A stretch of DNA of 64,000 nt from Kineococcus sp. NBC_00420 (GTDB lineage: Bacteria; Actinomycetota; Actinomycetes; Actinomycetales; Kineococcaceae), in contig NZ_CP107930.1 in NCBI RefSeq assembly GCF_036021035.1, forward strand, positions 5,046,006 to 5,110,005. Reading direction: 5' to 3'. Positions within the stretch are counted from its first letter, which is position 1. Every line of letters begins with the position of its first letter. Under the pieces are notes generated by a model. It searched no databases. It had not been told where the DNA came from and saw only the letters and a list, made by a program, of their open reading frames with translations. Both the position numbers and the translations under genes were made by a program. This document shows positions 1,864 to 53,015 of the stretch, piece by piece.

Positions 1864-1879
1864 CGTCCCGAGGTATTGA

Positions 1880-34310: not shown

Positions 34311-34324
34311 GAGAGGACAGACTG

Positions 34325-35590: not shown

Positions 35591-36003
35591 CCGGAACACG
35601 GCGTTCGGCGTTCGTCGACCAGGGTTTCACCCTGATCGAGCTCCTCGTCGTCATGATCATCATCGGGATCCTGACGGCCATCGCGATCCCGGTGACGATC
35701 GCGCAGCGGCAGAAGGCCGTGGAGTCGTCGCTGAAGAGCGATCTGCGGACGGTCGCGGAGTTCGAGGAGAGCTACGCCCACGACGGGCAGGACTACCTGG
35801 CGGTCGCGAAGACCCAGACGCCTGACATCGCGGGCAAGGTCTCGCTCTCCCCGGGCAACTCCGTGGAGGTGACGCTGAACGGTGCTTCGACGGCCTACTG
35901 CATCGTCGTGAGCAACCCGAAGACCCCGAAGGCCTGGGTCTTCGTCTCCACTCAGGGTGGCCAGCAGACGGCCGGCGTCCAGGTCTGTCCCACCTCCTTC
36001 TGA
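35587..36003 (+). CDS. pilA: type IV pilin (first copy)
   Basis: The 138-residue prepilin has a short leader ending DQG, then FTLIELLVVMIIIGILTAI, the class III signal with Glu at mature position 5 that the peptidase in this island would cut and methylate. A globular domain with two Cys near its end (TAYCIVV and VQVCPTSF) probably forms the D-region disulfide loop. GTG 35587 overlaps the pilC stop by four bases. It is closely similar to the second pilin at the 5' end, which points to a tandem duplication. A 13-bp terminator hairpin follows. Confidence 0.9.
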   Translation: MTGTRRSAFVDQGFTLIELLVVMIIIGILTAIAIPVTIAQRQKAVESSLKSDLRTVAEFEESYAHDGQDYLAVAKTQTPDIAGKVSLSPGNSVEVTLNGASTAYCIVVSNPKTPKAWVFVSTQGGQQTAGVQVCPTSF

Positions 36004-36011
36004 GTCGACCA

Positions 36012-36046
36012 AACGGTCCGTGAGTGTTCGTTGCTCACGGACCGTT
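36012..36046 (+). terminator. perfect 13-bp hairpin between the two pilin genes
   Basis: 36012-36024 pairs perfectly with 36034-36046 around a 9-base loop, nine bases after the first pilin stop. There is no T-tract. It would separate pilT-pilC-pilin 1 from the second pilin transcript. Confidence 0.75.
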
Positions 36047-36210
36047 CGCATGCGCGCGTTCGCCCGTTGATCCTTCCGGGTGATCACGTGACCGAGGGGC
36101 TCAAGGACCTTCTCGCCCGCACCGAAGAACTACTTGTCAGAGCCGCCACACCGGAAAGCCGGTGCGCGACCCGCGAGCGGCTCCGGAACTACCCGAAGGG
36201 GAGCATCGAC
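36047..36210 (+). promoter_or_regulatory. structured leader of the second pilin gene
   Basis: This 164-base untranslated leader contains nested pairings: 36140-36146 with 36177-36183 (7 bp) encloses 36149-36154 with 36159-36164 (6 bp, AAAG tetraloop). The frame is open through it, but it uses AT-ending codons (cta, ctt, aga, aca) unlike its neighbours, so it is not coding. The structure ends just before the ribosome binding site and could regulate pilin translation or mRNA stability. It does not match c-di-GMP riboswitch consensus that I know. Confidence 0.45.
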
Positions 36211-36630
36211 ATGCTCGCTCGCATCCGCAAGTCCATGAACGAGAAGGACCAGGGCTTCACCCTGATCGAGCTCCTCGTCGTCATGATCATCATCGGCATC
36301 CTCGCCGCGATCGCCATCCCGGTCTTCCTGAACCAGCGCAAGAAGGCCGTGGACTCGTCCATCAAGTCGGACCTGAAGACCATCGCCACCGCCGAGGAGA
36401 CGGCCTACACCGACAAAAACGCCTACGTGGCGGTCGCCGGCGGCACCGGCACCCTGACCATCGGCGACACCGTCAAGGTCAGCTCCGGCAACACCTTCAC
36501 CGTGAAGCTGGTCGACACGACCGGCTACTGCATCGAGGGTTCTGCGGCCACTGGCAAGGCGACCCAGACCTGGGTCTACAACAGCACCGCTGGTGGTCTG
36601 CAGGCCTCCTCCGTCACCGCCTGCGTCTGA
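36211..36630 (+). CDS. pilA: type IV pilin (second copy, probable major pilin)
   Basis: The 139-residue prepilin has leader MLARIRKSMNEKDQG, then FTLIELLVVMIIIGILAAIA and IPVFLNQRKKAV, the classic N-terminal helix with Glu5. The globular part has two terminal Cys (TGYCIEG and VTACV) for the disulfide loop. ATG 36211 has AAGGGGAG seven bases upstream, the best ribosome binding site in the island. It also has its own leader and is bracketed by terminators, which suits a highly expressed major pilin. The 5' coding sequence is almost identical to pilin 1 over about 50 bases. Confidence 0.92.
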   Translation: MLARIRKSMNEKDQGFTLIELLVVMIIIGILAAIAIPVFLNQRKKAVDSSIKSDLKTIATAEETAYTDKNAYVAVAGGTGTLTIGDTVKVSSGNTFTVKLVDTTGYCIEGSAATGKATQTWVYNSTAGGLQASSVTACV

Positions 36631-36642
36631 TCCGATCGCACT

Positions 36643-36683
36643 GAGGTGGGTGCCGTCCACGGTTCGTGGACGGTACCCACCTT
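36643..36683 (+). terminator. 16-bp hairpin after the second pilin gene
   Basis: 36645-36660 pairs with 36666-36681 around a 5-base loop with only one G-T wobble, and two further weak pairs extend it. It starts 12 bases after the stop and isolates the pilin from the minor-pilin genes. Confidence 0.75.
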
Positions 36684-36733
36684 CCGCACGTGAACCTGGC
36701 GTCGTCCGACGCCCACCGCCATCGGGAGCTCCA

Positions 36734-38080
36734 GTGAAACTGCGTCAGGAACGCCGGCGTGACGAGGGTTTCACCCTCATCGAGGTCGTCGTATCGATGC
36801 TGATCTTCGCCGTGCTGTCCTCGGCGGTGGTCGGCCTCGTGGTCAAGACCCTCCAGACTACGACGAAGGCGGACAACAAGAGCGCTGCCTCGAACCTCGC
36901 GGACGCCAAGAAGGAATACCTGATCGGCACCGACTGGGACAGCGTGGTCAGTGGGAGCAACACGGTCGACGCCGACGGAGACCCCTGGACGAACGCCACC
37001 CAGGGTGTCCAGTACACGGTGAAGACCACCGTGGCGCTGGTGCCCAACTCCGACAGCTTCTGTTCCACCAACGGCGCCGAGCTCACCCGCAAGCTCATCC
37101 GGGTCGACGTGAGCTGGCCCGGGATGGGCAGCACCGACGCCGTCACCAACAGCACGTTCCGCCGCGTCTACCAGTCCGACTCCGCGTCCCAGCCGGGCGC
37201 CGCCGCCTGGCAGGTCAACACGCCTGGATTCTCTCCCACCGGTGCCGTGAGCTACGCGGGCCTGTCTGGCCTGACTGCCAGCGCCTACGACAGTTCCACC
37301 GGCGCCCTCGCCGCGACCGGGGTCACCGACTCCAACGGGTGCGTCGTGATGTCGAACCTGGACGCTGGGAAGTACAGCGTGATCGTCAACCAGGCGGACT
37401 ACGTGGGCCAGGACAACAAGCAGCAGCAGAGCACCGACGTCACGGTTCAGGCCGGCAAGATCTCCGTCCCCGATCCGTTGCGCTACGCGCCGGTCTCCTC
37501 GGCGAAGCTCAAGCTGGTCCAGGTCGCGGGCTACAACCCGCCGTCCTCGCTCGCGAGCTGGACCGGGTTCTCCTCGACCCTCTACGCCGACACCATCAGC
37601 GGTTACGACCAGCGTTCGGCCTGCGTCGGAGCGGCCAGCGCGCTCAGCACCCCGTGCCTGGGTAGTGACGGGACCATCGGACGCCTGTACCCCAAGGCTT
37701 ACAGCGGCTGGCTGGGTCTGTGCGCGGATGTCAACGCAGCGTCCACCAAGGCCACCTCCGGCGACTTCACACCACGCTGGACCGCGGCGGACGTACCGAC
37801 CGTCAATGTCCAGCTCGGGTCGGCGGCATACCAGCTGACGTCGATCCTGACGACGCAGACCTGGGCCGTCACCGCGACCTACACCAACCCGACCGCCTCG
37901 TGCACGGGGCAGACGATCTCACTGGGGAACGCCTCGTCCAACTCGGCGTACAAGGTGGGTCTGCCGCTCGGAACGTGGACGATCACCGCTACGTCCGCCA
38001 CCGGCAAGGTGTCCTCGAAGAACGTCACGGTCACGAGCTCCAGTGCCCCCGTGGTCACGAGCCTCGCGGTGACGTTGTGA
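36734..38080 (+). CDS. large prepilin-like protein with carboxypeptidase-regulatory-like domain
   Basis: The 448-residue product begins with a class III prepilin signal (RRRDEG then FTLIEVVVSMLIFAVLSSAV, Glu at +5). The large ectodomain has a middle portion, TASAYDSSTGALAATGVTD through NLDAGKYSVIVNQADYVGQ, reading like a CarboxypepD_reg/SpaA-type beta-sandwich, and a similar sandwich may end the protein. Such modules occur in surface adhesins. It is probably a minor pilin displayed at the pilus tip. GTG 36734 has GGGAGC upstream, and the stop overlaps the next prepilin start. Confidence 0.82.
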   Translation: MKLRQERRRDEGFTLIEVVVSMLIFAVLSSAVVGLVVKTLQTTTKADNKSAASNLADAKKEYLIGTDWDSVVSGSNTVDADGDPWTNATQGVQYTVKTTVALVPNSDSFCSTNGAELTRKLIRVDVSWPGMGSTDAVTNSTFRRVYQSDSASQPGAAAWQVNTPGFSPTGAVSYAGLSGLTASAYDSSTGALAATGVTDSNGCVVMSNLDAGKYSVIVNQADYVGQDNKQQQSTDVTVQAGKISVPDPLRYAPVSSAKLKLVQVAGYNPPSSLASWTGFSSTLYADTISGYDQRSACVGAASALSTPCLGSDGTIGRLYPKAYSGWLGLCADVNAASTKATSGDFTPRWTAADVPTVNVQLGSAAYQLTSILTTQTWAVTATYTNPTASCTGQTISLGNASSNSAYKVGLPLGTWTITATSATGKVSSKNVTVTSSSAPVVTSLAVTL

Positions 38081-38841
38081 CGCGGCGGCTGCGTGCGGCC
38101 TTCGCACCCGACACGGTGCGCGACGCAGGCTTGACGCTGGTGGAGGTCGTGGTCTCGATGGCCATCGGAGCACTCCTGTTGGCCCTCGTCACCTCGTTCA
38201 CCGTCAGGGAACTGCGGACCATCGACTACGCCGACAAGCGGGGGACTGCGCAGAACCAGATCGCGACCACGCAGGACTTCATCGCGCAGAAGACGCGGAC
38301 GATGGTCGCCTACGTGGGTAGCACGCCGCTGGACGACCCCTCTGGCAAGGACATCAACGGCCCGGTCGCCGCGACGACGGAGACTGTGGGGTTCTACAGC
38401 TTCGTCACGAGCGTGGACGTCAGCGGGACGTCGGTCGCTCCGGTGGAGGAGGTCTGGCTCTGGGTCCAGACGTCCGGGACGAAGCGCCAGCTGTGCTCGC
38501 AGACCAGGGCGCGCACCCGGTCCGCCACGGACAGCGGGAAGCTGGCCGCCCTCTCGCCGGACCTCAACGTGGCCACGAACCGGACCTGCCGCGTGCTCAT
38601 CGCCGACCTCGCCGTCGTGGACAGCACGCGACCTGTCTTCCAGTACGTGACCGCCGCGTTCGACCCGCTCTCCGGGGTTCCCAGCGGTAACCAGGTCGTC
38701 AGCGCGCCGGCGACCGATTCCTCCGCGATGCGCGCCCTGTACGTGAACCTGCGTGTCAACGCCGGCACCGGAGTGCACCCCGTGGTCCTCGAGAAGACCT
38801 CGTTGATCCAGCTGCTGAACAAGATTGGACGGAACCCGTGA
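38077..38841 (+). CDS. prepilin-like minor pilin (PilW-like)
   Basis: The 254-residue product has the class III signal VRDAG then LTLVEVVVSMAIGALLLALV, with Glu at +5 and Leu instead of Phe at +1. The ectodomain of about 215 residues includes two Cys (RQLCSQTR and NRTCRVL). Size and position resemble PilW/PulJ-type minor pilins, which help initiate pilus assembly. GTG 38077 overlaps the preceding stop by four bases, and its own stop overlaps the following gene, so the minor-pilin genes form a tightly coupled set. Confidence 0.8.
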   Translation: MTRRLRAAFAPDTVRDAGLTLVEVVVSMAIGALLLALVTSFTVRELRTIDYADKRGTAQNQIATTQDFIAQKTRTMVAYVGSTPLDDPSGKDINGPVAATTETVGFYSFVTSVDVSGTSVAPVEEVWLWVQTSGTKRQLCSQTRARTRSATDSGKLAALSPDLNVATNRTCRVLIADLAVVDSTRPVFQYVTAAFDPLSGVPSGNQVVSAPATDSSAMRALYVNLRVNAGTGVHPVVLEKTSLIQLLNKIGRNP

Positions 38842-40661
38842 TGCGCAGGTTCGCCCGACGCAGCGATGACGGTTTCACCATGCTGCCCGTGCTCGCGGCC
38901 ATGGTCCTGGTCATGGGGCTCGTCCTCGTCGGGATCGGCTACGCCGTGGCGGCGCACAAGACCGCTCGCGTCTCCCAGGACAGCAAGGGAGCGGCCTCGG
39001 CCGCCCAGGCCGGACTGCAGGACTACATCTCGCGTGTCAACGGCTGCGCCGACTACTACGCGGCGGTGCCGAGCTGCACGACCGTCACGGTCAACCCCGG
39101 TCTGCGCACCTCGGCCAGCCAGACCAACGTGGCCGTCGTCCAGGGCAGCTCGGGCACCGACCAGGCGGTGTACTCGCAGCGAGTGCTCGCCTCGCCGGCG
39201 GGCACCGTGGCGGCCGGGACGTTCAGCACGTCCATCAGGGTCAAGGTCACCGGTCAGATCGTGAACCAGAACACCGGTGCCGTGCGGGAGAGCCGGACCA
39301 TCGTCGCCGACCTGAGCCGCGCGGGGTTCCTGGAGTACCTCTACTTCACCGACTACGAGACCTTCAGTCCCGCCAACACGCGCCTGATCAAGACGGCGAC
39401 CTCCGACACCGCCGACGATTCCTACACGATCAAGGACTACGCGACGGGTGGTTCCTACTCGCTCCAGAAGAACAAGAGCTACGGAATCGCGCAGCCCACG
39501 CTGGACCAGCTGACCGCCGGTTGCCAGAGGTACTACTACTCGACCAAATCGGGGGCTACGACCATCCCCGGCCGAGCGAACTTCCCACGCACGGTGACCG
39601 GTCCCGGCCTCCCGGCCGCCGGGGTGCAGTACTGGCCGACGACCACGTCCCCGGTCATCGGCTCCCTCGCCAGCTACCAGTGCCTCACCATCAGCTTCAG
39701 CGGGAACGACAGCTTCGACGGCAAGGTGCACTCCAACGACGGCATGAGCCTCAGCGGTCCCGTGCTGTTCAAGAAGAACGTCACGACCGGCTGGGCTCCC
39801 GGCGCCGGCAACCCCTGGTACGGCGGGAACAATCCGAACCCGGCCGGGCAGGTGCCGGTCCGCGCGTCGACGCTGTCCATGCCCAAGACGACCGACTCCC
39901 AGGCCGATGTGGCAGCGAAGAGCGGCTGCGTCTACACCGGACCGACCCAGATCACTTTCCTGGCCAACGGGAAGATGAAGGTCCTGAGCCCCAAGACCCA
40001 GGGGACGTCGGTCAACACCGGGTGCGCCATCGGCACGGGGTACATGACGACTGAGCAGACCGTGGCGGGACCGACCAACGGTGTCATCTACGTCCAGAAG
40101 ACCACCGACGCGGGAACCTGCCTCAGCTGGCAGACGACCAAGGACGACGTCACGAACTACGACAACTCCGGCTGCACCACCGGTGACGCGTTCGTCCAGG
40201 GCACCGTGAGCGGCCGGTTCACCGTCGCCGCCCAGCACGACATCGTCATCACGGGGAACATCCTCTACAACGACTGGAGCGTCGGGGCGGACGTCCTCGG
40301 GCTGATCGGTACGAACAACGTCGCGGTCTGGCACCCGGTGAACGCGTCGAACCAGAACCTGACGGCCACCGCGAACCTCGAGATCGACGCGGCCATCGCG
40401 TCGACGGGCAACAGCTTCACGGTGTTCAACTACAGCGGCGGTGGAACCAAGATGGGGACCCTGACCGTCCGTGGGGTCATCGTGCAGCGGTTCCGTGGAC
40501 CGGTTGCCACCGGCAGCGGGTCGAGCACCGCCAGCGGTTACGCCAAGGACTACCGCTACGACGACCGGTTGAACAGCAACCCCCCGCCGGCGTTCATCCA
40601 GCCCGAGTTCGACGCGTGGGACATCTCCAGCACCACCGTCGTGCAGCAGAGTTCGAACTGA
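38838..40661 (+). CDS. 607-residue minor pilin-like protein lacking Glu5 (PilX/GspK-like)
   Basis: The N-terminus SDDG then FTMLPVLAAMVLVMGLVLVG is a class III-type signal and helix, but position +5 is Pro, not Glu. Loss of Glu5 is also seen in the tip pseudopilin GspK. The ectodomain is very large (about 560 residues), Thr/Ser/Gly/Asn-rich with several Cys, and unrecognised in detail. Segments such as SFSGNDSFDGKVHSNDGM and DIVITGNILYND look like a beta-helix or adhesin-type repeat. It ends just before the prepilin peptidase gene. The start is GTG 38838 or ATG 38841. Confidence 0.75.
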   Translation: MMRRFARRSDDGFTMLPVLAAMVLVMGLVLVGIGYAVAAHKTARVSQDSKGAASAAQAGLQDYISRVNGCADYYAAVPSCTTVTVNPGLRTSASQTNVAVVQGSSGTDQAVYSQRVLASPAGTVAAGTFSTSIRVKVTGQIVNQNTGAVRESRTIVADLSRAGFLEYLYFTDYETFSPANTRLIKTATSDTADDSYTIKDYATGGSYSLQKNKSYGIAQPTLDQLTAGCQRYYYSTKSGATTIPGRANFPRTVTGPGLPAAGVQYWPTTTSPVIGSLASYQCLTISFSGNDSFDGKVHSNDGMSLSGPVLFKKNVTTGWAPGAGNPWYGGNNPNPAGQVPVRASTLSMPKTTDSQADVAAKSGCVYTGPTQITFLANGKMKVLSPKTQGTSVNTGCAIGTGYMTTEQTVAGPTNGVIYVQKTTDAGTCLSWQTTKDDVTNYDNSGCTTGDAFVQGTVSGRFTVAAQHDIVITGNILYNDWSVGADVLGLIGTNNVAVWHPVNASNQNLTATANLEIDAAIASTGNSFTVFNYSGGGTKMGTLTVRGVIVQRFRGPVATGSGSSTASGYAKDYRYDDRLNSNPPPAFIQPEFDAWDISSTTVVQQSSN

Positions 40662-41452
40662 TGCCGGCCCTGGTGGCCTTCGCCGGCCTCGTGGGCCTGG
40701 CCATCGGCTCGTTCCTCAACGTGGTCATCCACCGCGTACCCCGGGACGAGTCGGTGGTCCACCCGCCGAGCGCCTGCCCACGCTGCGGTCTCGGGATCAC
40801 CGCGCGGGACAACGTCCCGCTGGTGTCCTGGATCTTCCTGCGCGGACGGTGCCGGGGGTGCGATCTCCCGATCAGCCCACGCTACCCGTTGGTCGAACTC
40901 CTCACGGCCCTCCTGTTCGCCGGGGTGACTCTGGTCGTAGGCCTCTCCTGGGCGCTGCCGGCCTACCTCTACCTGGCGGCGGTCGCAGTGGCCTTGGCGG
41001 CGATCGACATCGACGTCCAGCGACTACCCGACAAGATCGTCCTTCCCTCCTACGGGGTCGCTCTCGTCCTGCTCGCGGTCGCGAGCCTGGGTGACGGGAA
41101 CTGGGGAGCACTCGTCCGGGCCGTCGTCGGTGGTCTCGCGCTGTTCCTCCTCTACGCCGTCATGGTGGTCGTCTACCCCCGGGGGATGGGGCTGGGCGAC
41201 GTGAAGCTCGCCGGGGTCCTGGGTCTGTACCTGGGCTGGTGGGGATGGTCGGCGTTGGCCGTCGGCGCCTTCGGCGCCTTCGTCCTCGGTGGAGCGGGAG
41301 CACTGCTCGTGGTCGCGACCAGGCGTTCTGGGCGCGGCACCCGCATCCCCTTCGGTCCGTACATGCTCGCGGCCGCCCTGGCGTCCCTCGTCGTGGCGGC
41401 ACCCATCGCCGGCTGGTACCTCGACCTCATGGGCATTGCCCCGACCGGGTGA
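40661..41452 (+). CDS. pilD: prepilin peptidase / N-methyltransferase
   Basis: PilD cleaves class III signal peptides and methylates the new N-terminus. The 263-residue polytopic protein has the N-terminal domain with GSFLNVVIHRVPRDES and four Cys in CPRCGLG and CRGCDLP for the methylase part. The peptidase aspartates are in AIDIDVQRLPDKIVLP and the GxGD motif GMGLGDVKLAGVLG. ATG 40661 shares its A with the preceding stop. It would process the pilins and minor pilins encoded just upstream. Confidence 0.94.
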   Translation: MPALVAFAGLVGLAIGSFLNVVIHRVPRDESVVHPPSACPRCGLGITARDNVPLVSWIFLRGRCRGCDLPISPRYPLVELLTALLFAGVTLVVGLSWALPAYLYLAAVAVALAAIDIDVQRLPDKIVLPSYGVALVLLAVASLGDGNWGALVRAVVGGLALFLLYAVMVVVYPRGMGLGDVKLAGVLGLYLGWWGWSALAVGAFGAFVLGGAGALLVVATRRSGRGTRIPFGPYMLAAALASLVVAAPIAGWYLDLMGIAPTG

Positions 41453-41555
41453 GAGCGATCACCCCGGGTGTCGGAACTGCTCAAGCACATAGCACCACAA
41501 TCCGATCATCACTGTGAAGCGTGAGCCCGCCGGGCTCCCAGACGAAGGAGGCGAC

Positions 41556-42602
41556 GTGCCCGCTCGCAGCGCGATCGGTCTCGACCTCGGTACCTCGGGT
41601 GTCCGTGCCGCCGAGGTCTCCTACGGCCGCGAAGGTATCACCCTCGAGAAGTTCGGGCAGGTCGCGCTCCCCGACGGCGCGGTGCGCGACGGGGAGGTCG
41701 TCGACCGCGAAGCGGTCGTCACCCAGCTGAAGGCGCTCTGGAAGGGTAGCGGGTTCACCGGCAAGAAAGTGGCGCTCGGAGTCGCGAACCAGAGGGTCAT
41801 CGTCCGCCAGATCGACCTGCCGTGGATGCCGCTCGCCGAGCTCAAAGCGGCTCTGCCGCTGCAGGTCCAGGACTACCTCCCGATGCCGGTGGAAGAGTGC
41901 GTCATCGACTTCCACCCCACCGAGGAGATCCACGACGGGGACCAGCGCCGTCTGCGCGGCCTGCTCGTGGCCGCGTCGCGCGACATGGTGTTGAACAACG
42001 TCGCCGCCGTCGAGGCCGCTGGTCTGCGGGTCACCTCCGTGGACCTCACGTCCTTCGCGGTGTTGCGCAGCGTGGGCAAACCCCACGGGGACGTGGCGAC
42101 CGAGGCGCTCCTGGACATCGGTGCCCGGGTGTCGAACCTCGTCATCCACTCCGCGGGACAGCCTCGTTTCGTCCGCGTACTGCTGAGCGGTGGCCAGGAC
42201 GTCACCGATGCGATCGCCGAACGTCTGGGGCTGCCAGCACAGATCGCCGAGGCCGTGAAGCGAGGTGGCACCGAGGAGCTGACGCAGAGCGAGCTGGGCA
42301 TGGTCCAGAGCGCGGTCGACCTCATGCTCGAGGTCTTCGTCGACGACATCCGCAGCTCGCTGGACTACTACGCGGCCTCCAACGCCGGGTTTCCGATCGA
42401 GCGCATCGTCATCTCTGGCGGTGGTTCGCTGATGGCCGGCGTGTGCGAACGGCTCGAGGCGGCGACCCGCAAGAAGGTCGTGTGGGCCAACCCGATTGAG
42501 GGGCTGCACCTGGGGCGCACCGGTCTCGACGAACAGCAGCTGTCCACCGTCCAGCCTCTGGCCGCAGTTCCCGTCGGCCTCGCCCTCGGAGTGATCTCAT
42601 GA
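41556..42602 (+). CDS. pilM: type IV pilus assembly ATPase-fold protein PilM
   Basis: PilM is an actin/FtsA-fold cytoplasmic protein that binds the PilN N-terminus. The 348-residue product has the ATPase-fold start AIGLDLGTSGVRAAEVSYG, DLPWMPLAELKAALPLQVQDYLPMP (split as DLPWMPLAELKAAL and QVQDYLPMP), TEALLDIGARVSNLVIHS and ERIVISGGGSLMAGV. GTG 41556 is preceded by GAAGGAGG; the longer frame from 41514 lacks support. The stop overlaps the pilN ATG. The 103-base gap after pilD is the only place for a new promoter here. Confidence 0.9.
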   Translation: MPARSAIGLDLGTSGVRAAEVSYGREGITLEKFGQVALPDGAVRDGEVVDREAVVTQLKALWKGSGFTGKKVALGVANQRVIVRQIDLPWMPLAELKAALPLQVQDYLPMPVEECVIDFHPTEEIHDGDQRRLRGLLVAASRDMVLNNVAAVEAAGLRVTSVDLTSFAVLRSVGKPHGDVATEALLDIGARVSNLVIHSAGQPRFVRVLLSGGQDVTDAIAERLGLPAQIAEAVKRGGTEELTQSELGMVQSAVDLMLEVFVDDIRSSLDYYAASNAGFPIERIVISGGGSLMAGVCERLEAATRKKVVWANPIEGLHLGRTGLDEQQLSTVQPLAAVPVGLALGVIS

Positions 42603-43246
42603 GTTTTCAGACGCTGGAGGCGGTGGCCTCCCGGACGCGGCCCGTCCGGGTCAACCTGCTCCCCACCGGTTTCGACAAGCCCCGCAGGGAGCGTCGACTC
42701 CGGATCGGCCTCGGGATCACCCTGCTGGCCGTCGTCGCTGCGAGCGGTGCCGGCTACTACATCACGTTGGGGCACGTCGGAGACGCGAACTCGCGCCTCG
42801 AGACGGCTCAGTTCCAGACAGCGGAACTGCAGCGGGCCCAGCAGCCGTACGCCGAGGTTCCGAAGATCCTGGCGCGGGTCAAGGCGGTCCAGGATGTGCG
42901 CGACCAGGTCTCCGCGTCGGACGTGCCGTACTACGCGATGCTCGACCGCCTCGCGACCGCAGCCCCGGCGGACCTCTCGATGTCCACGATCACCTTCGCA
43001 TCGGCGGCTGCGACCAACGGCTCGGCGTCACCGGCCGCCACGGCGTCGGCCGGGACGGCGGGAACCCTGACCATCTCCGGCAAGGCGTTGTCCATGGACA
43101 CGATCGCGGCCTGGATGGACAGCATCGACGCGGTGCCGGGTTTCGCAGGTGCTGCGATCAGCGACGCCAATCGCGACGACCAGGGCGTCATCACCTTCAA
43201 CGCGACCGTGACGCTGACCAGCGCCGCCTTGTCGTCCAACCAGTGA
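42599..43246 (+). CDS. pilN: type IV pilus alignment protein PilN
   Basis: PilN is a bitopic membrane protein linking cytoplasmic PilM to PilO. The 215-residue product carries the PilM-binding motif VNLLPTGF at about 17-24, a basic stretch, one membrane helix (about 40-57, IGLGITLLAVVAASGAGYYI), a coiled-coil-like segment (LETAQFQTAELQRAQ) and a C-terminal ferredoxin-like domain ending with ITFNATVTL. The ATG overlaps the pilM stop by four bases. Family length and layout are normal for a Gram-positive pilus system. Confidence 0.88.
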   Translation: MSFQTLEAVASRTRPVRVNLLPTGFDKPRRERRLRIGLGITLLAVVAASGAGYYITLGHVGDANSRLETAQFQTAELQRAQQPYAEVPKILARVKAVQDVRDQVSASDVPYYAMLDRLATAAPADLSMSTITFASAAATNGSASPAATASAGTAGTLTISGKALSMDTIAAWMDSIDAVPGFAGAAISDANRDDQGVITFNATVTLTSAALSSNQ

Positions 43247-43274
43247 TCAGCCCCAGGAGAGGAGGACCGACGAC

Positions 43275-43955
43275 ATGACCAGTTCCAAGAACACTGCCTG
43301 GATCGCCGGCACCGGCGTTCTCGCGGTGCTGATCCTGGTGGCCAGCTACTTCCTCCTGATCGCCCCGAAGCGTGCGGAAGCGGCGGACACCGTCGCCCAG
43401 GCTGCCGGCGTCGAGCAGGGCAACGAGACCCTCGCGGCGGAGACGGAACGCCTGAAGGCGCAGTTCGCCACCCTCGACGACCAGCGCGCCCAGCTGGCCG
43501 AGATCCAGGCGGAACTCCCGGCGGAGTCCGAGGTTCCGGCGTTGATCCGTCAGTTCTCCGTCTACGCGGCGGGTGCCGGCGTGAGCGTCAAGACCATCGC
43601 GCCGGGAACTCTCACCGCCTACGCCGGTGACGGCACCACCGCGACGACGACCACCGGGACGACGGCCAGCGGTACGAACGGCGGGATCTCCGTCATGCCG
43701 ATCAGCGTGACCGTCGAGGGTTCCTTCGCCGGTACCGAGCTCTTCGTCAAGAACCTGCAGGCAGACATGCACCGGTACATCCTTGTCGACGGCGTCGCGC
43801 TGGTCGACGAGGACACCACCCTCGCCACCACCATCACCGGCAGCATCTTCGTCCTCGCCGACGACGCCACGGTCACCAGCACCGCGTCCACCGGTACTGA
43901 CGCCACCACGCCCGCCACCAGCGCTGCGGCGACCTCCACCGGGACGGTGAACTGA
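43275..43955 (+). CDS. pilO: type IV pilus alignment protein PilO
   Basis: PilO partners PilN. The 226-residue product has one membrane helix at about 12-30 (GVLAVLILVASYFLLI), a coiled coil (ETERLKAQFATLDDQRAQLAEIQ), then a ferredoxin-like domain with ALIRQFSVYAAGAGVSVKTI and FVKNLQADMHRYILVDGVAL. A Thr/Ala-rich stretch of about 25 residues interrupts the domain, and another forms the C-terminal tail. ATG 43275 has GGAGGAC upstream. The stop overlaps the next gene start. Confidence 0.86.
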   Translation: MTSSKNTAWIAGTGVLAVLILVASYFLLIAPKRAEAADTVAQAAGVEQGNETLAAETERLKAQFATLDDQRAQLAEIQAELPAESEVPALIRQFSVYAAGAGVSVKTIAPGTLTAYAGDGTTATTTTGTTASGTNGGISVMPISVTVEGSFAGTELFVKNLQADMHRYILVDGVALVDEDTTLATTITGSIFVLADDATVTSTASTGTDATTPATSAAATSTGTVN

Positions 43956-45182: not shown

Positions 45183-46655
45183 ATGATGCGCAAGCCCCAC
45201 GCCGTCGCCCGGCGCGCCGCGGCCGCGGTCGTCCTCGCCGGCCTCGTCGGTGGCGCGGCTGCCGGTGCCGCCGACGCCTCGCCGATCCGGTTCGCCGCCA
45301 CCTACGGCGTCGACCGGTACCAGACGTCCGCTTTCGCGGACGGCAACCCCACCGCCACGGCCTTCCTGGTCTCCGGCGACAACTACCCCGACGGTCTCGC
45401 TGCCGGGGCGGTCGCCGGGGCCGTCGGCGGGAACGTCTACCTCGTGCAGAAGAATTCGATCCCGCAGTCCGTCCGGGATCGCATCGTCTACGCGCAGCGG
45501 ATCGTGCTCGTCGGCAGCGAGGCCTCGGTCGGCAGTGACGTCATGTCGTGGTTGCAGCAGAACACCAAGGCCCAACTGTCCCGCGCCCAGGGTCTGGACC
45601 GGTTCGACACGGCGGCCGATCTGTCGAAGCAGTTCTTCCCGCTGGCCGCGGGCACCGCCGCCGACCCGGTGAGCAACGTCGTCATCGCGACCGGGTGGGA
45701 CTACCCGGACGCCTTGACCGGTAGCGCCGCCGCGGCCCACGAGACGTCACCGCTGCTGTTGGTGCAGCGTGATACCGTCCCGGCTTCAGTCGTCGCCGAA
45801 CTCCAGCGGCTCAAACCGAAGGCGATCACGGTCGTCGGTGGTTCCGAGCGGGTGTCCGATACCGTCCTCGCGCAGCTGAAGACCTACACCGCCGGCTCCG
45901 TGGACCGGGTCGCGGGTTCGGACCGCTACCAGACGGCGGACCGGGTCAGCGCCCGGTTCTTCCCCGCCGCGGCCAACGTCACGCTCGTCTCCGGCCAGAC
46001 CTACGCGGACGCGTTGTCCGCGGGAGCCTCGGCCGGCCGGAGCGGGGGGCCACTGCTGCTGACCGCAGAGGACTGCCTGACCGAGGCGACCAACGTCGAG
46101 ATCGAACGCCTCCAGGCCACGGTCGACGAGACGGACGCGTCCCTGAGTTCGTTCGGCTACACCGACCGGATCAGTGAGTCCGCCAACAAGCGTACGAACT
46201 GCCAGCCGACCGGGACCGCGCCGAAGACCTACCTGGACGACCTCACCTACGTCGAGGGCAGCGCGCGCTACCGGATCGACCACGCCACCATCGCGGGGCA
46301 CTTCTACCCGCGATCGACGGCGTTCGACACTGACCCGCGTCACCAGGCGCCGGACACGCAGTACCCCAACGCCGACTACGGCAGCTGGACGCTCGGCGGC
46401 AAGTACTCCCGCTTCAGCACGGTCGCAGGCATCGCCGATGAGAACACCAGCGGCATCAGCTCGATTGTCCGCGTGTACGGCGACGAGCAGTTGCTCGGCG
46501 AGGTCTCGGTGTCCCGGGGCAAGCCGGCGACGCTCGACGTCGATGTGCGCGGCGTCAGCCGGATCAAGGTCACGACGACCACCACCGGGGGCAAGACCCC
46601 TCCCACCACGGCCCGGGCGAACTACGTCTACCTCGGCGACGCGGCTGTCAACTGA
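45183..46655 (+). CDS. secreted cell-wall-binding repeat 2 protein with C-terminal NPCBM-like domain
   Basis: The 490-residue product has a Sec signal peptide (basic start RKPHAVARR, hydrophobic core, cleavage near GAADAS). It carries three cell-wall-binding type 2 repeats, each starting with a DRYQT/DRFDT motif (GVDRYQTSAFADG, GLDRFDTAADLS and GSDRYQTADRVS) and containing LVSGDNYPDGL-like segments. The C-terminal part from about 340 resembles an NPCBM carbohydrate-binding module (DLTYVEGSARYRI, SWTLGGKYSRFST). It probably anchors to wall polymers, possibly beside the pilus. Start at ATG 45183 or 45186. A terminator follows. Confidence 0.85.
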   Translation: MMRKPHAVARRAAAAVVLAGLVGGAAAGAADASPIRFAATYGVDRYQTSAFADGNPTATAFLVSGDNYPDGLAAGAVAGAVGGNVYLVQKNSIPQSVRDRIVYAQRIVLVGSEASVGSDVMSWLQQNTKAQLSRAQGLDRFDTAADLSKQFFPLAAGTAADPVSNVVIATGWDYPDALTGSAAAAHETSPLLLVQRDTVPASVVAELQRLKPKAITVVGGSERVSDTVLAQLKTYTAGSVDRVAGSDRYQTADRVSARFFPAAANVTLVSGQTYADALSAGASAGRSGGPLLLTAEDCLTEATNVEIERLQATVDETDASLSSFGYTDRISESANKRTNCQPTGTAPKTYLDDLTYVEGSARYRIDHATIAGHFYPRSTAFDTDPRHQAPDTQYPNADYGSWTLGGKYSRFSTVAGIADENTSGISSIVRVYGDEQLLGEVSVSRGKPATLDVDVRGVSRIKVTTTTTGGKTPPTTARANYVYLGDAAVN

Positions 46656-46761: not shown

Positions 46762-48291
46762 GTGATCGTTCTCGTCGGCTTCATGGGCGCCGGCAAGACC
46801 ACCGTCGGCTGGTTGCTGGCCGATCGCCTCGGGCTCCCGTTCGTCGACACCGACCTCGTGATCGAGGATCGGGAGCGCCGGCCCATTCCGGAGATCTTCG
46901 AGAGGGACGGCGAGACCGCGTTCCGCGACGTCGAGCAGTCCGTCGTTGCCGACGTGCTGGCCGGCCCGGAAGCTGTGGTGTCCCTCGGTGGCGGAGCGTG
47001 CGGCCGTGCGGGCACCCGCGTGGTCCTCGGTGCTCACACCGTCGTGCACCTCGACGTCTCCTTCGAGGAGGCGAAGCAACGCACCGCGGGGGACGCCGAC
47101 CGTCCCATGCTGCACCGTCCCGGTCTGGCTGAGCTCCACGCGTCCCGGCGCGAGGTGTTCGACGACCTCGCCGACGTCAGCGTCGGCACCGACGGGCGCC
47201 GCGCCGAGGCCATCGTCCTCGAGGTCCTCGACGGAGTGACCGGCCACGACGGTGTCCTCGTCGCGCCACCTGGTGGTACCTACCGGGTGCATGTCCGGGC
47301 CGGTCTGCTGGCCGGAGTCGGCGCGCAACTACCCACCGTGGGGATGGTCCTCGTCGTGGCGCGGGCAGGGGACCCCTCGCTGAGCTTGCTGACGGCGGGG
47401 ATGTCGGGTGCGGTCCACGTCGAGGAACTGCCGGTCGGCCCCGTGAAGGACCTCGCGACCTACGGTCGCCTCGCGTTGTGCGCCGCGGAGATCGCGCTGC
47501 ACCCCGACGACCTCGTCATCGCGATCGGTGACGAGGCCGTCGTCGATGTCGCTGGATTCCTCGCCGCAACCTACAACCGTGGTATCCGCTGGGCCGTCGT
47601 GCCCCGGTCGTTGGAAACCCTCGTCGACTCCTCGCTCGGGGGGGAGGTCGCTCTGGACCTCCCGCAGGCGCGCGACCTGCTCGGCGCGGTGCACCAGCCC
47701 ATCGCGGTGTTCAGCGATCCGGAGGGGATCTCTCCGGTCACCGATCCGAGGTTCGGGGCCGGTCTCGCGGAGGCCGTCAAAACAGCGCTCGTCGCCGACC
47801 CCGGGGACCTGGAGCTCGCGGTCACCTCCGCCCCGGCCGTGCTGGCCGGGGACGTCGGTGCCGTGGCGGCCCTGGTCCGAAGGGCGGTCGCGACCAAAGC
47901 CAGGATCGTCACGGCCGACGAGCGGGAGGCGGCCGGTCGGTTGCACCTGAACTACGGCCACACGTTCTCCCACGCGTTCGAGCAAGTGCTCGAGCGGGAC
48001 GGAGAAGCCCTGCCGCTCGGGCTGATGGCCGCTGCCCAACTGGCGCGCCGGCTCGGTTTGCTCGACGACGCCGGAGTGGAACTGCACCGGACGGCGCTGC
48101 GCGCGTTCGGGTTGCCGACGGCACACCGGTTCACTCTGGCTGAGCTGATGCCGCTCTGGCTGCGCGACAATAAGTTCAAGAACGGAGTCCGGTTCGTGCT
48201 GTTGCACGGCCCGGGCCGCCCCGAGGCGGGGGTTCCCGCCGACGACGACGCACTGACCGGTGCGCTCGACGACCTCGCGGAGGACAGATGA
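46762..48291 (+). CDS. aroK: shikimate kinase fused to a degraded 3-dehydroquinate synthase-like domain
   Basis: The 509-residue product has two parts. Residues about 1-160 are shikimate kinase with P-loop GFMGAGKTT, the Mg/shikimate segment [29 protein letters not shown] and the lid Arg RPMLH; it looks active. Residues about 165-505 align with the following aroB but have lost key residues. The NAD site GGG becomes GDE ([13 protein letters not shown]), the substrate Lys of VGGKTG becomes LGGEVA, KNLVG becomes RDLLG, and the metal His in HGAAV is lost (DGEAL). GLAEAVK and [11 protein letters not shown] are kept. So the second part is probably not catalytic. The stop overlaps the aroB start. 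Confidence 0.88.
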
Positions 48292-49379
48292 CCACCACAC
48301 CAGAACCCGTCCGGATCACCGTCCCCGGCGAGTCGCCCTACGACGTCCTCATCGGTCGCGGTCTCCTCGGAGAACTCCGCGGTCTGCTCGGACCGAAGGT
48401 CGCCAAGGTCCTCGTCGTCCACCCGCGCGCGTTGCGCTCCACCGGCGAGGCGGTCCGGGACGACCTCGTCGGTCAGGGGCTCGAAGCGATTCTCGCGGAA
48501 GTTCCCGACGGCGAGGAGGCCAAGTCGGCCGAGGTCGCCGCCTTCTGCTGGACGGTCCTCGGTCAGTCCGACTTCACCCGGTCCGACGCGGTCGTGGGGG
48601 TCGGCGGAGGCGCGGTCACGGACCTGGCGGGTTTCGTGGCCGCGACCTGGTTGCGCGGAGTTCGGGTGGTGCAGGTTCCGACCACCCTGCTGGCGATGGT
48701 CGATGCCGCCGTCGGCGGGAAGACCGGGATCAACACCGCCGAGGGCAAGAACCTCGTCGGCTCGTTCCACCCGCCGGTCGGTGTGCTGTGCGACCTCGAT
48801 GCCCTGGACACGTTGCCGCCCCACGACCTCCGCGCCGGACTGGCCGAAGTCGTCAAGTGCGGCTTCATCGCCGATCCGCGGATCCTCGAGCTCATCGAGG
48901 AGGACGTCGCCGCGGCCACCGATCCCCACTCGCCCGTCCTCGCCGAACTCGTCGAACGCGCCGTCCGGGTCAAGGCCCACGTCGTGGGGGAGGACCTCAA
49001 GGAATCCGACCTCCGGGAGATCCTCAACTACGGTCACACGTTCGCCCACGCCGTGGAACTCGTGGAGCGCTACCAGTGGAGGCACGGCGCGGCGGTCAGT
49101 GTCGGTCTCTGCTACGTCGCGGAGCTCGCCCGGATGGCGGGCCGGCTCACCGACAGCGACGCGGACCGGCACAAGGCGGTTCTCGAACGCCTGGGCCTGC
49201 CGACGAGCTACCGGGGCGACCGCTGGCCGCAGTTGCTGGACGCGATGAAGAGGGACAAGAAGTCGCGCGGGGCACTGCTGCGTTTCGTCGTCCTCGACGG
49301 GATCGGCAAACCTTCGCGGCTGGAGGGCCCGGATCCCGCGATGCTGCAAGCGGCCTACGCCGAGATCAGCTCGTCCTGA
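48288..49379 (+). CDS. aroB: 3-dehydroquinate synthase
   Basis: AroB closes DAHP to 3-dehydroquinate using NAD and a divalent metal. The 363-residue product keeps all catalytic elements: [16 protein letters not shown] (NAD), [11 protein letters not shown] and GKNLVGSFH (substrate Lys and Asn), GLAEVVKCG (Glu metal ligand, Lys), [12 protein letters not shown] (Arg-to-His segment) and RHGAAVSVG (second metal His), and the C-terminal [11 protein letters not shown] 48288 overlaps the aroK-fusion stop by four bases. This is the functional synthase beside a degraded copy. Its 3' end overlaps the convergent GT87 gene by 14 bases. No aroC or aroQ gene is nearby. Confidence 0.97.
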
Positions 49380-50547
49380 TCCGGTACGCGACCTGGCGGC
49401 CCACTCGTGGGCGCCACCCGGTGAGCAGCACCAACAGGACGAGCAGTGGGACGGTTTGCAGGGCGGCGACGACCCACCACGCGTTGGACAACCACCTGGC
49501 GTCGTAGAGCACGAACACGGTGACCATCGTCAGCCAGGGACCACGATTGCTGCGGCGCAGAACGTCCACGGCGAGGCAGGCCACGGTGACCGTGGCGAAG
49601 TAGTAGTTCCAGGCCTGCGGGTCGAGGGCGACCCGACCGGCCACCGTGGCGAAGGGGACCAGGTGCGGCTGCCCCCGGAGGACGGCCAGCGAACCAAGCG
49701 TCAGCACTAGGACGAACTGCAGTGGTCGGACCCAGCCGGGGAAGGGGTCGCCGCCCAGACCCAGCAGAGCCAACGGGGAGATCCACCAGACGTCCAGCCG
49801 GGCAGCCGCGAGCGCGGACAGCGTTCCGGGTGCGCCGAGCAGGAATGGTGCCCAGCAGGCAGCGGCGACGAACGCCGCGGTCGCGACCCGCAGGCATCGG
49901 ACCAGTACCGGAGCTGACCAGAGGACAGCGAGGGGGAGCAGACCGACTGCCCAGGGCTTTCCGGCCGCAGCGAGGCCGAGTAGCCCCGCTGAGAGCCAGG
50001 GGATCCATTGCCCATCGCGCGTCCGCGACCAGCAGAGGACGAGGAACGCCACGCCCAGGGCGAGGACGTCCTCGGGATGGCTGAACTCCGCGGCGATGCG
50101 CCACCAGTAGATGGCCGCGAATGCCCCACCCGACAAGACCGTCAGGGAGGTCATCGGATCGGGTGGCCCGCCAGCTCGTCGGGCCCGCTCTAGGACGTAG
50201 CAGAGCAACGGCAAACAGGCGCCCAGAACGGTGACTGCCGTCCAGCCGCGGACGGCGTCCGGGAGCATCGCCACCGGCACGGCCAGGATGAGGGCGGGGG
50301 GACCGATCCACGTGCTGGGCGATGCGATGTACACCCCGAGCGGGGACGTGCCGGTCCGCCCCGTCAAGACCTGCGCGGCGTTGTAGAAGAACGGCCAGTC
50401 GCCGGGCATCCCACCGGACGTCCGCACCTGCCACAGCGCCGGCAAGACACCAGCGGCTAGCAGCAGCGGGTACCGGAAACCCGCTAGGGTCAGGAGCCAC
50501 CCGGGAAGGCCCGTCCAGGTTGCTCGCTGGTCACGTCGGAACTCCAC
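49366..50547 (-). CDS. GT87-like polytopic membrane protein (paralogue 1)
   Basis: The 393-residue protein is predicted to have about ten membrane helices and looks like the DUF2029/GT87 group of GT-C polyprenyl-phosphate-dependent mannosyltransferases. The first extracytoplasmic loop has [17 protein letters not shown] with the catalytic-type Asp. Other family positions are [56 protein letters not shown] and [16 protein letters not shown] 50547 is the only usable start after the neighbour's stop. It is the third of three tandem minus-strand paralogues and overlaps aroB by 14 bases. Confidence 0.75.
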
Positions 50548-50585
50548 CGTGGGGGAATCGGCAGACTGCAGCCCTGGGTTGATCG

Positions 50586-51779
50586 TCAGCCCTGCACCCG
50601 TTGCTGGGGTCTGCGGTGGGGGCTTGCGGACGTGGGAGAGAGGAGCGGCTCGTCCGTCCTGGCCACCATGACGACGGCGGCGACGAGCGGCAACGCCTGC
50701 AGGGCTGCCTCGAGGGGGGTGAAGAGGATGACCCAGCGGACGTCGTACAGCACGAAGACGCTTACGATGGTCAGCCAGGGCCCCGGGCGGCCCCTCCGCA
50801 GGACGTCGGCGGCCAGGCACGCCACGGCGACCGTGGCCAGGTAGTAGTCCCAGGACTGCGGGTCGAGCCCGAGTCGTGCCGCCACCGCCACGAACGGGAC
50901 CAGGTGTGCTCGGCCGCGCGCCACGGCCAGGCCGGCCAGCCCGAAGGCCACAGCGAACTGCAGCGGACGGACCCAGTCCGGGAAACTCTCGCCGGCCAGT
51001 CCGACGAGGGCTAGTGGTGACTCGTCCCAGACGCGCAGGCTGAAGGAACTGAGCGCGGAGAGGGTCCCCGGTGCGGCGATGAGGAACGGCGCCCACCACA
51101 GGACCGCGACGAGTCCTCCGACCACCACGCGCAGGCCACGGATGCGGACCGGGCCGCCGAAGGCGCCCGCCAGCGGGAGGAACCCCACGGCCCACGGCTT
51201 GCCCGCGGCAGCGATCCCCAGCAGGACTGTGGCGAGCCACGGGGTTGACGGGTCGGTGCGTGTTCTGTTCCAGGACAGCACCACACAGGTCACAGCGATG
51301 GCGAGGACGTCCTCGACGTGGGTGAAGTCGGCGACGACCCGCCACCAGTAGATCGATGCGAAGAGCCCACCCGCCAGCACCGTGAGCTGGGTGTGGACGG
51401 CGGACGGCGTGAGGGAACCCGCCGCCCGTTCGAGGAGTCGGCAGCTGAGCGCGAGACACGACCCGAGCAGCAGCACGACGACCGGCTGTCCGATTCGCGG
51501 GTCGAGCAGCGCGAGGGGGAGCGCCAGGAGGACCGCGGGCGGTCCGATCTGAGTCTCGGGTGACACCGCGTACAGGCTCAGGGGCGCGTCGCCGGTCTGC
51601 CCGGCCAGGATGCGGGCTGCGTCGCGGAAGTAGTTCCAGTCGGTGAGCTCGCCCGTGGTGTGCAGGTGCCACAGCCCGGGCACGGTGCCCGCCAGCAGGA
51701 GGACGACGAAGCGCAGCCGCAGCACCACGTTGACCCACCTGGTCACGGGTTGCGTCGAGGCGGCGGGGAACGTCGTCAT
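50586..51779 (-). CDS. GT87-like polytopic membrane protein (paralogue 2)
   Basis: The 397-residue polytopic protein is clearly related to paralogue 1: ELTDWNYFRDAARILAG for the loop Asp, [61 protein letters not shown] and LDPQSWDYYLATV. Like GT-C enzymes it would use a polyprenyl-phosphate sugar on the outer membrane face. Substrate and acceptor are unknown. It starts with MTTFPAASTQPVTRW at ATG 51779 and ends at 50586, 38 bases before paralogue 1 starts. Confidence 0.75.
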   Translation of the reverse strand: MTTFPAASTQPVTRWVNVVLRLRFVVLLLAGTVPGLWHLHTTGELTDWNYFRDAARILAGQTGDAPLSLYAVSPETQIGPPAVLLALPLALLDPRIGQPVVVLLLGSCLALSCRLLERAAGSLTPSAVHTQLTVLAGGLFASIYWWRVVADFTHVEDVLAIAVTCVVLSWNRTRTDPSTPWLATVLLGIAAAGKPWAVGFLPLAGAFGGPVRIRGLRVVVGGLVAVLWWAPFLIAAPGTLSALSSFSLRVWDESPLALVGLAGESFPDWVRPLQFAVAFGLAGLAVARGRAHLVPFVAVAARLGLDPQSWDYYLATVAVACLAADVLRRGRPGPWLTIVSVFVLYDVRWVILFTPLEAALQALPLVAAVVMVARTDEPLLSPTSASPHRRPQQRVQG

Positions 51780-51824
51780 GCGTTGATCATCGGTAACGCA
51801 GCCGCTGCTCTGAATGTGCCGGCG

Positions 51825-53015
51825 TCATGCCGTGCGTGGTCCGGCGTTCCTCCGCGGCGTGCGCAAGCGTGAGACCGCGGGGCCCAGGAGCACAGCTCCG
51901 AGGACCACCGGGAGCAGGGAGGCCTGGATCACAGCGACCTGCCAGTCGTTGGGGACGAGCCACCGGGCGTCGTAGACGAGCAGGACCACGGTGATCGTCG
52001 CCCACGGCATCCTACGTCCACGCACAGCCAGGTCGGCTCCCACGGTCGCGACCGCTAGCACGGCGAAGTAGTAGTCGTAGTTCTGCGCCTCGAGCGACAC
52101 CCTGACCGCGACCGCGAAGGCGATCCCCGCCAGCACGAGGCGACATTGGACCGCGAAGAGGACCAGGAGCGCTCCGACACCGATCTGGAGGGGACGCAGC
52201 CAGGACGGGACCTGGCCACCGACGTCGAGCAGCGACAACGGTGCGGTACTGCTGACGTAGATGTGAAACCCGGACAGGGCGTCGACCGTCCCAGGGGCCC
52301 CCAGTACGAAGGGCAGCCAGGGCAGGGCAGCGGTGGACGCCGCGATCGCGGGAGCGAGGACGAGCCGTCGCCCCCGCGAACCCAGTAGGGCGACCGGCAG
52401 TAGTGCCAGCCCCCAAGGTTTCGCGCCCGCGGCGATGCCCAGGAGGACGGCGCTGGAGACCCACCGCCCCGCGACACCGGCGCGGACAGCAGCGCAGGCC
52501 GCGAGGAGGAGCAGGACGTCGTCCGGGTGGACGTAGCGACCGAAGGCGCTGGGCCACAGCAAGAGGCACGCAGCGCCTGCGGTGAACACCAGCACGGGGC
52601 GGCTGTCATCGCGGCCGAGGTGTTCGTCGGCGGCGCCCTCCAGGAGATGCAGGCACAGCGGGAGGGCGAGGGCGGAGATCGCGGCGATGGTGGTCACCGC
52701 GAGGTGCTGCGGCAACCAGAGGACGACCGGGGTGAGCGCCGCGAGTGGCACGGGTCCGATCTGGACCGTCGGAACGTCCCGATAAAGGTCCAGCGGGCCC
52801 GTGGCGAGGGTGGGCCCGGCGAAGAACAGGTTCGGGGCGACGTCGCCGGAGTGCCCGGTGAACACCAGGGCGGCCATTCGAAAGAAGGTGAAGTCGGAGC
52901 CGGCGCCGAAGGACACCGACGTCTTCACGCCGATCACGACCGCGGCTACGGTCAGGACGGCGAAGCGGTGCCGGATCAGGAACTCAGCACGTCCAGCCCC
53001 CGGACTCAGACGCAC
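51825..53015 (-). CDS. GT87-like polytopic membrane protein (paralogue 3)
   Basis: This 396-residue polytopic protein is the most diverged of the three. It keeps the order of conserved parts: GAGSDFTFFRMAALVFTG for the loop Asp, VQIGPVPLAALTPV, HPDDVLLLLAACAA, IAAGAKPWGLALLPVA, GAPGTVDALSG, SWLRPLQIG and SLEAQNYDYYFAVL. GTG 53015 overlaps the end of the upstream pilin-like gene by 10 bases, so the two are probably co-transcribed and coupled. This overlap is the strongest physical link between the glycosyltransferase-like genes and the pilin-like proteins. Confidence 0.73.
   Translation of the reverse strand: MRLSPGAGRAEFLIRHRFAVLTVAAVVIGVKTSVSFGAGSDFTFFRMAALVFTGHSGDVAPNLFFAGPTLATGPLDLYRDVPTVQIGPVPLAALTPVVLWLPQHLAVTTIAAISALALPLCLHLLEGAADEHLGRDDSRPVLVFTAGAACLLLWPSAFGRYVHPDDVLLLLAACAAVRAGVAGRWVSSAVLLGIAAGAKPWGLALLPVALLGSRGRRLVLAPAIAASTAALPWLPFVLGAPGTVDALSGFHIYVSSTAPLSLLDVGGQVPSWLRPLQIGVGALLVLFAVQCRLVLAGIAFAVAVRVSLEAQNYDYYFAVLAVATVGADLAVRGRRMPWATITVVLLVYDARWLVPNDWQVAVIQASLLPVVLGAVLLGPAVSRLRTPRRNAGPRTA

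Follow-up and report, generated by a model that had tools for sequence, protein, structure and literature searches.

The window, by which we mean the whole stretch of 64,000 nucleotides analysed here, encodes a shikimate kinase (SK, AroK) fused to a dehydroquinate synthase (DHQS) domain that is predicted to be catalytically dead, yet is conserved as a protein under purifying selection. Our best reading, held tentatively, is that this DHQS-fold domain binds a ligand and thereby regulates its own kinase.

The fusion gene is one open reading frame running from a GTG at 46762 to a TGA at 48289–48291, and positions 46762–48288 encode 509 residues, the kinase being followed by a 344-residue DHQS domain that opens with a conserved linker, LVAPPGG (Table 1). 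In the product Pfam recognised SKI with 134 bits (residues 8–157), DHQ_synthase with 74.5 bits and DHQS_C with 95.3 bits, and both halves of the DHQS domain lie above the cut-off, as expected of an AroB by fold and Pfam domains. The ATG of aroB overlaps the fusion stop by 4 nt (ATGA). The first-pass annotation had described a fused SK and degraded DHQS followed by an overlapping intact aroB, and this arrangement is borne out by the reading frame, the Pfam matches and the ATGA. When scored with TIGR01357 (curated cut-off 305), the neighbouring AroB reached 350.1 bits and the fusion 185.9 bits; with the bifunctional AroK-AroB model NF010627 (cut-off 565) the fusion reached 224.4 bits, again below the cut-off. 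The host genome, a single contig of 5.43 Mb, holds two DHQS copies only by PF01761 matches, the fusion and aroB. Its sole convincing SK is that of the fusion, the other PF01202 match spanning 27 profile positions and barely clearing the cut-off (22.2 versus 22.1 bits). The fused kinase appears complete in its P-loop, DxD, Arg and GGG residues, with all 18 invariant positions present, these being the positions common to 15 fused SKs, 8 unfused SKs of the family and, among 24 canonical SK rows, to 95% or more.

Table 1. Features of the fusion gene and the adjoining aroB, in window coordinates.
Feature	Position	Strand	Basis or remark
Shikimate kinase (AroK) domain, residues 1–160	46762..47241	+	Pfam SKI; family's invariant residues present
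SK Arg147 codon	47200..47202	+	Residue specific to kinases bearing the dead domain
Dead DHQS domain, residues 166–509	47257..48288	+	Pfam DHQ_synthase, DHQS_C; AlphaFold2 and Foldseek
Glu258 codon replacing third NAD-loop Gly (Mtb G107)	47533..47535	+	Residue comparison
Glu295 codon replacing substrate Lys (Mtb K144)	47644..47646	+	Private to the window's species
Asp413 codon replacing third metal-ligand His (Mtb H265)	47998..48000	+	Residue comparison
GGAGG, ribosome-binding-like site for aroB	48279..48283	+	Read directly; within the final codons of the fusion
Catalytically complete aroB, 363 aa	48288..49379	+	TIGR01357 score; complete active-site fingerprint

Active-site positions were numbered on M. 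tuberculosis (Mtb) AroB. For the NAD site (the GGG loop and the Lys of GKN) and the metal site we use labels that we take to be correct and that come from outside the source of the pocket residues. At the NAD site the window's domain carries G106D, G107E, T131R and K153R, and of the Glu-His-His metal triad it keeps E186 and H249, H265 being replaced by Asp. Among the 11 DAHP-pocket residues, which were taken from PMC6262012, eight are retained (D138, E186, K189, K228, R242, N246, H249 and H253) and three are lost (K144E, N154D and K323N). These three are among the five Mtb residues for which PMC6262012 reports that alanine mutants (K144A, N154A, N246A, H249A and K323A) have lost nearly all DHQS activity. 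The motif changes claimed in the first-pass annotation (GGG to GDE, VGGK to LGGE and HG to DG, with EAVK and NYGHTFSHA kept) are all present, and alignment on the Mtb AroB positions confirmed the losses rather than restoring a full set of catalytic residues. Since a fixed Glu occupies the pyrophosphate loop and the NAD-site Lys is missing, the NAD-dependent reaction would be impossible, and the window's domain, by sequence, cannot be a DHQ synthase. The K144 loss, N154D and K323N are absent from the three sister species, which keep 11/11 pocket residues, and the Lys-to-Glu change at K144 is private to the window's species, 14 of the 15 members of the family described below having Lys. As three pocket residues kept by the sisters have been lost, ligand binding in the window's species may be weakened or gone.

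A search beyond the window's species, which the first-pass annotation had proposed, combined a genome-contig scan for exact short patterns, which will miss members, with genus, family, order, class and phylum searches, and yielded 15 distinct fused proteins of the dead type. Four are in the window's genus, three in Micropruina, one each in Agilicoccus flavus and Piscicoccus intestinalis, and six at actinobacterial MAG loci (L049, L050, L051, L052, L055 and L057); a fourth Micropruina locus, L054, was not counted, as its domain duplicates that of L053. Within the genus the fusion occurs in 4 of 11 genomes, the other three proteins being 81–82% identical to the window's, and in more distant actinobacteria identity is 43–52%. 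A full-length open fusion in four species rules out chance similarity, a frameshift or an assembly artefact. In the order sample (198 genomes), no match outside the window's genus was better than 4e-71, the three sisters lying at or below 1.2e-259. Only the window's own protein reached 400 bits in the class sample (394 genomes), for which L150 and L151 of the other ten loci were fingerprinted and L196–L203 left out, and the window's own was the sole dead-type fingerprint among domains long enough in the phylum sample (396 genomes, 30 loci).

Residues were counted in these 15 domains and in 129 catalytic AroB domains, excluding incomplete domains (L117, L129 and L152), duplicate loci from L185 up and the divergent paralogue L046. 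The Mtb G107 position is Glu in 15/15 dead-type domains and Gly in 129/129 catalytic domains, a count made without L046, which keeps GGG but differs elsewhere. The NAD-site Lys, K153, is kept in 0/15 dead-type versus 129/129 catalytic domains. In the pocket, D138, E186, K189, K228, R242 and H249 are each kept by all 15, K144 and N246 by 14, N154 and K323 by 12, and H253 by nine. All 11 pocket residues are found in eight members (the three sisters, L050, L051, L052, L055 and L057); three others keep ten, one keeps nine, and three, the window's among them, keep eight. The metal His H265 is kept in 5/15 dead-type versus 129/129 catalytic domains, and the metal triad is intact in five members, four of which (L050, L051, L052 and L057) also have the full pocket. 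These counts indicate that across the family the NAD site has been lost in all members and the sugar-phosphate pocket mostly kept, with the metal site partly eroded.

In a 73-row tree, from which 35 of 108 rows were left out, mostly long branches and near-duplicates and including the genus AroBs L019 and L025, the 15 dead domains formed one clade (support 100/100) that grouped with 12 catalytically complete AroK-AroB fusions (100/97). It is to complete fusions of family f25 and kin that the dead domain is most closely related, and the window's AroB sits among the ordinary AroBs of its family. A quick 108-row tree agrees, with support of 98 for the larger group. When the genus's four dead domains were forced together with nine genus AroBs, the tree was 145 log-likelihood units worse (p-AU 6e-7), and a recent local duplication of aroB is rejected as the origin of the dead domain. 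Since the dead domain groups with AroK fusions and the AU test separates it from the genus AroBs, the fusion came first, most likely derived from a functional AroK-AroB protein, and the aroB of the window is of a different lineage. The proposal of the first-pass annotation, a fused pseudo-enzyme that arose by decay of an AroB duplicate, therefore holds for the pseudoenzyme, as judged from its residues and the selection on it, and fails for the local duplicate. A quick kinase tree placed all 12 kinases of the window's family, fused or not, together (95), within a 25-row group (90) that also takes in the remaining dead-type fusions and two more rows, itself nested in a 36-row group with 11 complete fusions (94); one complete fusion, L145, was placed elsewhere by its kinase. 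From these groupings, the kinase of the window's family derives from the fusion lineage, and its unfused members have probably lost the domain.

An exploratory scan over all SK positions singled out Arg147, which is present in 15/15 dead-type fusions as against 1/12 complete fusions of the related clade, 0/13 other fusions, 0/24 canonical SK rows and 1/8 unfused family SKs. The unfused kinase with Arg147 is that of G048, the genome that bears the longest scar of a deleted domain. The linker lies where the domain alignment is loose, at its edge; within it, L166 and P169 occur in 15/15 dead-type domains versus 1/129 and 0/129 catalytic domains, respectively. Arg147 and the linker point to a putative defined contact between the kinase and the dead domain, and their pattern favours action on the domain's own kinase over action on AroB. 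The best AlphaFold2 model of the whole protein, built from a 12-sequence alignment, had a mean pLDDT of 85.4 and a pTM of 0.73, with the lowest confidence in pocket loop 291–310; two of the five models had mean pLDDT values of 69.7 and 65.6. The best Foldseek match was Mtb AroB (3qbe; E 2.5e-24, TM 0.85 by target length), and the dead domain is predicted to have the DHQS fold.

A second AroB was found in 14 of the 15 fusion genomes overall (4/4 within the genus and 10/11 outside it, the exception being MAG G202) and in 0/6 genomes whose fusion is catalytically complete (G207, G209, G210, G212, G213 and G214). Outside the genus, nine second AroBs are fully readable and all have the complete residue set; that of G204 is incomplete at its end, its residues being complete up to there. 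In Micropruina, Agilicoccus and Piscicoccus an ordinary aroK lies near aroB and the fusion is a second kinase; in G201, G203, G206 and G208 it is the sole kinase found.

The anatomy of the sequence, its ancestry, the purifying selection, the co-occurrence of a second AroB, and the conservation of the linker and Arg147 are the observed basis for regarding the dead domain as a regulator of its own kinase; what we infer is that the domain has lost its activity, binds a ligand, closes and controls the kinase. The regulatory domain has its ancestor in the AroB part of an AroK-AroB fusion and would have lost NAD binding, leaving the DHQS step to another AroB in the genome. It would still fold as a DHQS and, in the family at large, keep the pocket for the phosphorylated C7 sugar DAHP. 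Binding of DAHP, 3-dehydroquinate or a related anion in this pocket would close the domain, and closure, acting via the conserved linker and the Arg147 region, would alter the activity, stability or assembly of the kinase, such that step 5 of the pathway would sense flux at step 2. Feedback in the shikimate pathway is usually placed at the first enzyme. If the proposal is true, a sensor derived from another pathway enzyme and joined to shikimate kinase would add a control point to a pathway that is under study for antibacterial targets. Several observations weigh against it. The domain has been deleted in sister species (G048, G106 and, more weakly, G092), the pocket is eroding in the window's species and six other members, and H265 is lost in 10/15. 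In addition, G048 has Arg147 without the domain, one complete fusion has Arg147 as well, and a homologue that keeps its fold can retain pocket residues for packing reasons.

It is possible, though rather doubtful, that these proteins constitute a hitherto undescribed actinobacterial family of DHQS-fold pseudoenzymes that are NAD-free, bind DAHP or 3-dehydroquinate without turnover, and control the kinase of their own chain, providing allosteric feed-forward from step 2 to step 5. A dead homologue kept under purifying selection beside an active one, the mark of a regulatory, prozyme-like pseudoenzyme, is what we find here. In one lineage, that of MAG G200, the domain occurs together with a mirror-image fusion, much as though a bifunctional enzyme had been duplicated and its two functions divided by reciprocal decay. 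The second AroB of this genome (L108) is itself fused to a degenerate kinase domain, which scores 79.4 bits with Pfam SKI versus 141.2 for the kinase of the dead-DHQS fusion. This kinase has lost six of the 18 invariant positions (F46, G50, F54, R55, G77 and G78) and keeps the P-loop, D29, D31, R107 and R129, and G200 therefore seems to hold two AroK-AroB fusions decayed in opposite halves. The G200 AroB clusters with its counterparts from G201, G203 and G208 (100/100), a group whose position the 73-row tree leaves without resolution, and 3.3-kb loci spanning the second AroB in each of the latter three genomes yielded no kinase remnant by tblastn.

An unlikely alternative is that the dead domain acts on AroB instead, pairing with the true enzyme as a prozyme-like heteromer partner, lending it an inter-subunit Arg and tethering the kinase to it. 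The residue at the Mtb R122 position, which we take to be the Arg that one subunit of the DHQS dimer supplies to the other, is Arg in 15/15 dead-type domains; the same Arg would, however, be needed for a homodimer too. ATGA couples the kinase gene and aroB in 11/11 genus genomes and the two are neighbours at L055, but aroB keeps the ATGA in species without the domain, and outside the genus the fusion and the other AroB lie on different contigs in nine of the ten genomes that have both. Among the loci examined, linkage to aroB was seen only in the window's genus and that one MAG, and we reject it as a universal clue to function. A Pfam scan of selected ORFs beside the fusion at L047, L048, L049, L050, L055, L057 and L060 found no consistent gene partner; aroE adjoins the fusion at L060, and aroE, aroC and aroB lie near it at L055. 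A mixed complex would also suit the coexistence in G200 of the fusion with an oppositely degenerate AroK-AroB fusion, and dead paralogues in trypanosomes activate their partners (PMC5201418, PMC3663545). Against such a partnership, the domain is not a recent-duplication paralogue of the local AroB.

The domain might instead be a structural prop whose sole effect is to stabilise the kinase or make it dimerise, neither ligand nor regulation being involved, which we also judge improbable. The retention of the fold under purifying selection, the conserved linker and Arg147, and the pocket loss in the window's species are all compatible with a prop. Such a role leaves the full 11-residue pocket of 8/15 members unexplained while the NAD site is lost in all, and the sister kinases manage without the domain.

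We hold it decidedly improbable that the domain is a passenger, dying and kept open merely because it is flanked by an essential kinase and the ribosome-binding site of aroB. The deletions in the genus are what could be expected of a passenger, as they are in frame and preserve the aroB start. In G048, 37 residues of the domain's C-terminus are left in frame (62% identity, E 9e-6), G106 retains a shorter stretch, and G092 shows a weaker likeness; two deletions with different end points, in G048 and G106, are well supported, and no countable scar was seen in G014, G134, G120, G032 or G064. Both the ATGA overlap and a GGAGG just before it are present in 11/11 genus members, including species without the domain. 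Its in-frame removal in sister species shows that the genus can do without the domain. The additional losses seen in the species of the window and the long stem branch of the genus's dead-domain clade (0.76 in the 73-row tree) also fit a passenger. The substitution pattern argues otherwise. Across the four genus members, NG86 dN/dS was 0.17–0.24 for the dead domain, near the 0.11–0.28 of the kinase (AroB, 0.05–0.09) and far from the values simulated for neutral, random mutation of the domain (means of 1.13 or 1.35 by base composition, minimum 0.72); only NG86 was used, the maximum-likelihood dS being saturated or unstable (ratio of 0.79 for the window versus G148). Differences in the dead domain numbered 283, 214 and 822 at the first, second and third codon positions, placing 822 of 1319 at third positions. 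On the dN/dS and this third-position excess a neutral passenger is not favoured. Six pocket residues are, moreover, invariant in 15/15 over deep divergence, and in Micropruina, Agilicoccus and Piscicoccus the fusion, as a second kinase, is not beside aroB. A new enzyme carrying out an NAD-independent step on a related sugar phosphate is very improbable, as, despite a metal triad kept without the NAD site in 5/15 (four with the full pocket) and a loop Glu fixed as if selected, H265 is lost in 10/15, the ORFs scanned include no consistent gene neighbour and, to our knowledge, NAD drives the chemistry in the known members of the DHQS fold.

The window's fusion resembles the bifunctional AroK-AroB proteins (NCBIfam NF010627 / PRK14021) in having the same two domains in the same order, but complete fusions carry the full catalytic set and occur without a second AroB (6/6), whereas the window's lacks the NAD site. 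The nearest published precedent that we found is Candida albicans Aro1/Dqd1; according to PMC9074039, the DHQase domain of Aro1 is inactive, its step is done by the separate Dqd1, and the presence of the separate enzyme correlates with DHQase-domain loss. As described there, both cases have one dead domain in a fused shikimate-pathway protein and a separate enzyme for the step. However, Aro1 is a fungal five-domain protein whose dead domain is a DHQase and whose separate enzyme has the unrelated type II fold, whereas here the dead domain is a DHQS and the separate enzyme a homologue. In the trypanosomatid prozymes of AdoMetDC and DHS a dead homologue is likewise kept beside an active one, although prozymes are separate chains and demonstrated partner activators (PMC5201418, PMC3663545); the window's dead domain shares its chain with a different enzyme and is known from sequence. 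Within the open-access PMC literature, subscription papers being outside our scope, we found no paper on a dead DHQS domain, and the sole paper with both 'dehydroquinate synthase' and 'pseudoenzyme' (PMC11528492) concerns a TrpC-TrpF fusion.

The loci form a graded series, from complete fusions through NAD-free domains with the metal triad and domains without it to deletion scars, together with one reciprocal pair, on which ideas about how a pseudoenzyme arises and disappears can be tested. Such proteins may be labelled bifunctional AroK-AroB by annotation pipelines, but, judged by their residues, they are not.

Among the fusions of a shikimate kinase to a dehydroquinate synthase (DHQS) domain, the NAD site has been lost in those of the metagenome-assembled genome (MAG) loci L050, L051, L052 and L057, and these proteins retain the full metal triad and all residues of the DAHP pocket (11/11). 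They are the top candidates when probing for ligand binding or an unknown activity. In Agilicoccus, Piscicoccus and Micropruina (L048, L060, L047, L053 and L105), the dead-domain fusion is an additional, second shikimate kinase, and an ordinary aroK-aroB pair is present separately.

The kinase domain of L108, a fusion locus of the actinobacterial MAG G200, has lost 6 of the 18 invariant shikimate kinase positions. Judged from sequence, G200 appears to carry both mirror-image fusions; its locus L049 has the one with the live kinase and the dead DHQS. The paralogue found at L046 may be a sugar phosphate cyclase that serves secondary metabolism.

Within the window, a Pfam search of one of the three apparent membrane paralogues (50586–51776, the single one searched) returned no match. 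The pilus cluster encodes a T2SSE ATPase, a prepilin peptidase, PilM, PilN, PilO and two proteins with N-methylation motifs.

Features at the fetched loci and around the fusion in the window
Feature	Location	Strand or position	Basis
Degenerate shikimate kinase and complete DHQS in one fusion	L108 (G200) 589–2364		residue comparison
Divergent DHQS-fold paralogue	L046 (G064, sister genus) 1021–2343		altered active-site residue set
Apparent tandem array of three paralogous multi-pass membrane proteins, ~400 aa each	window 49366–53015	minus	translations judged by eye
Type IV pilus gene cluster	window 32826–43955	same strand as fusion, upstream	
CWB2/NPCBM cell-wall-binding protein	window 45183–46655	directly before fusion, after pilus cluster
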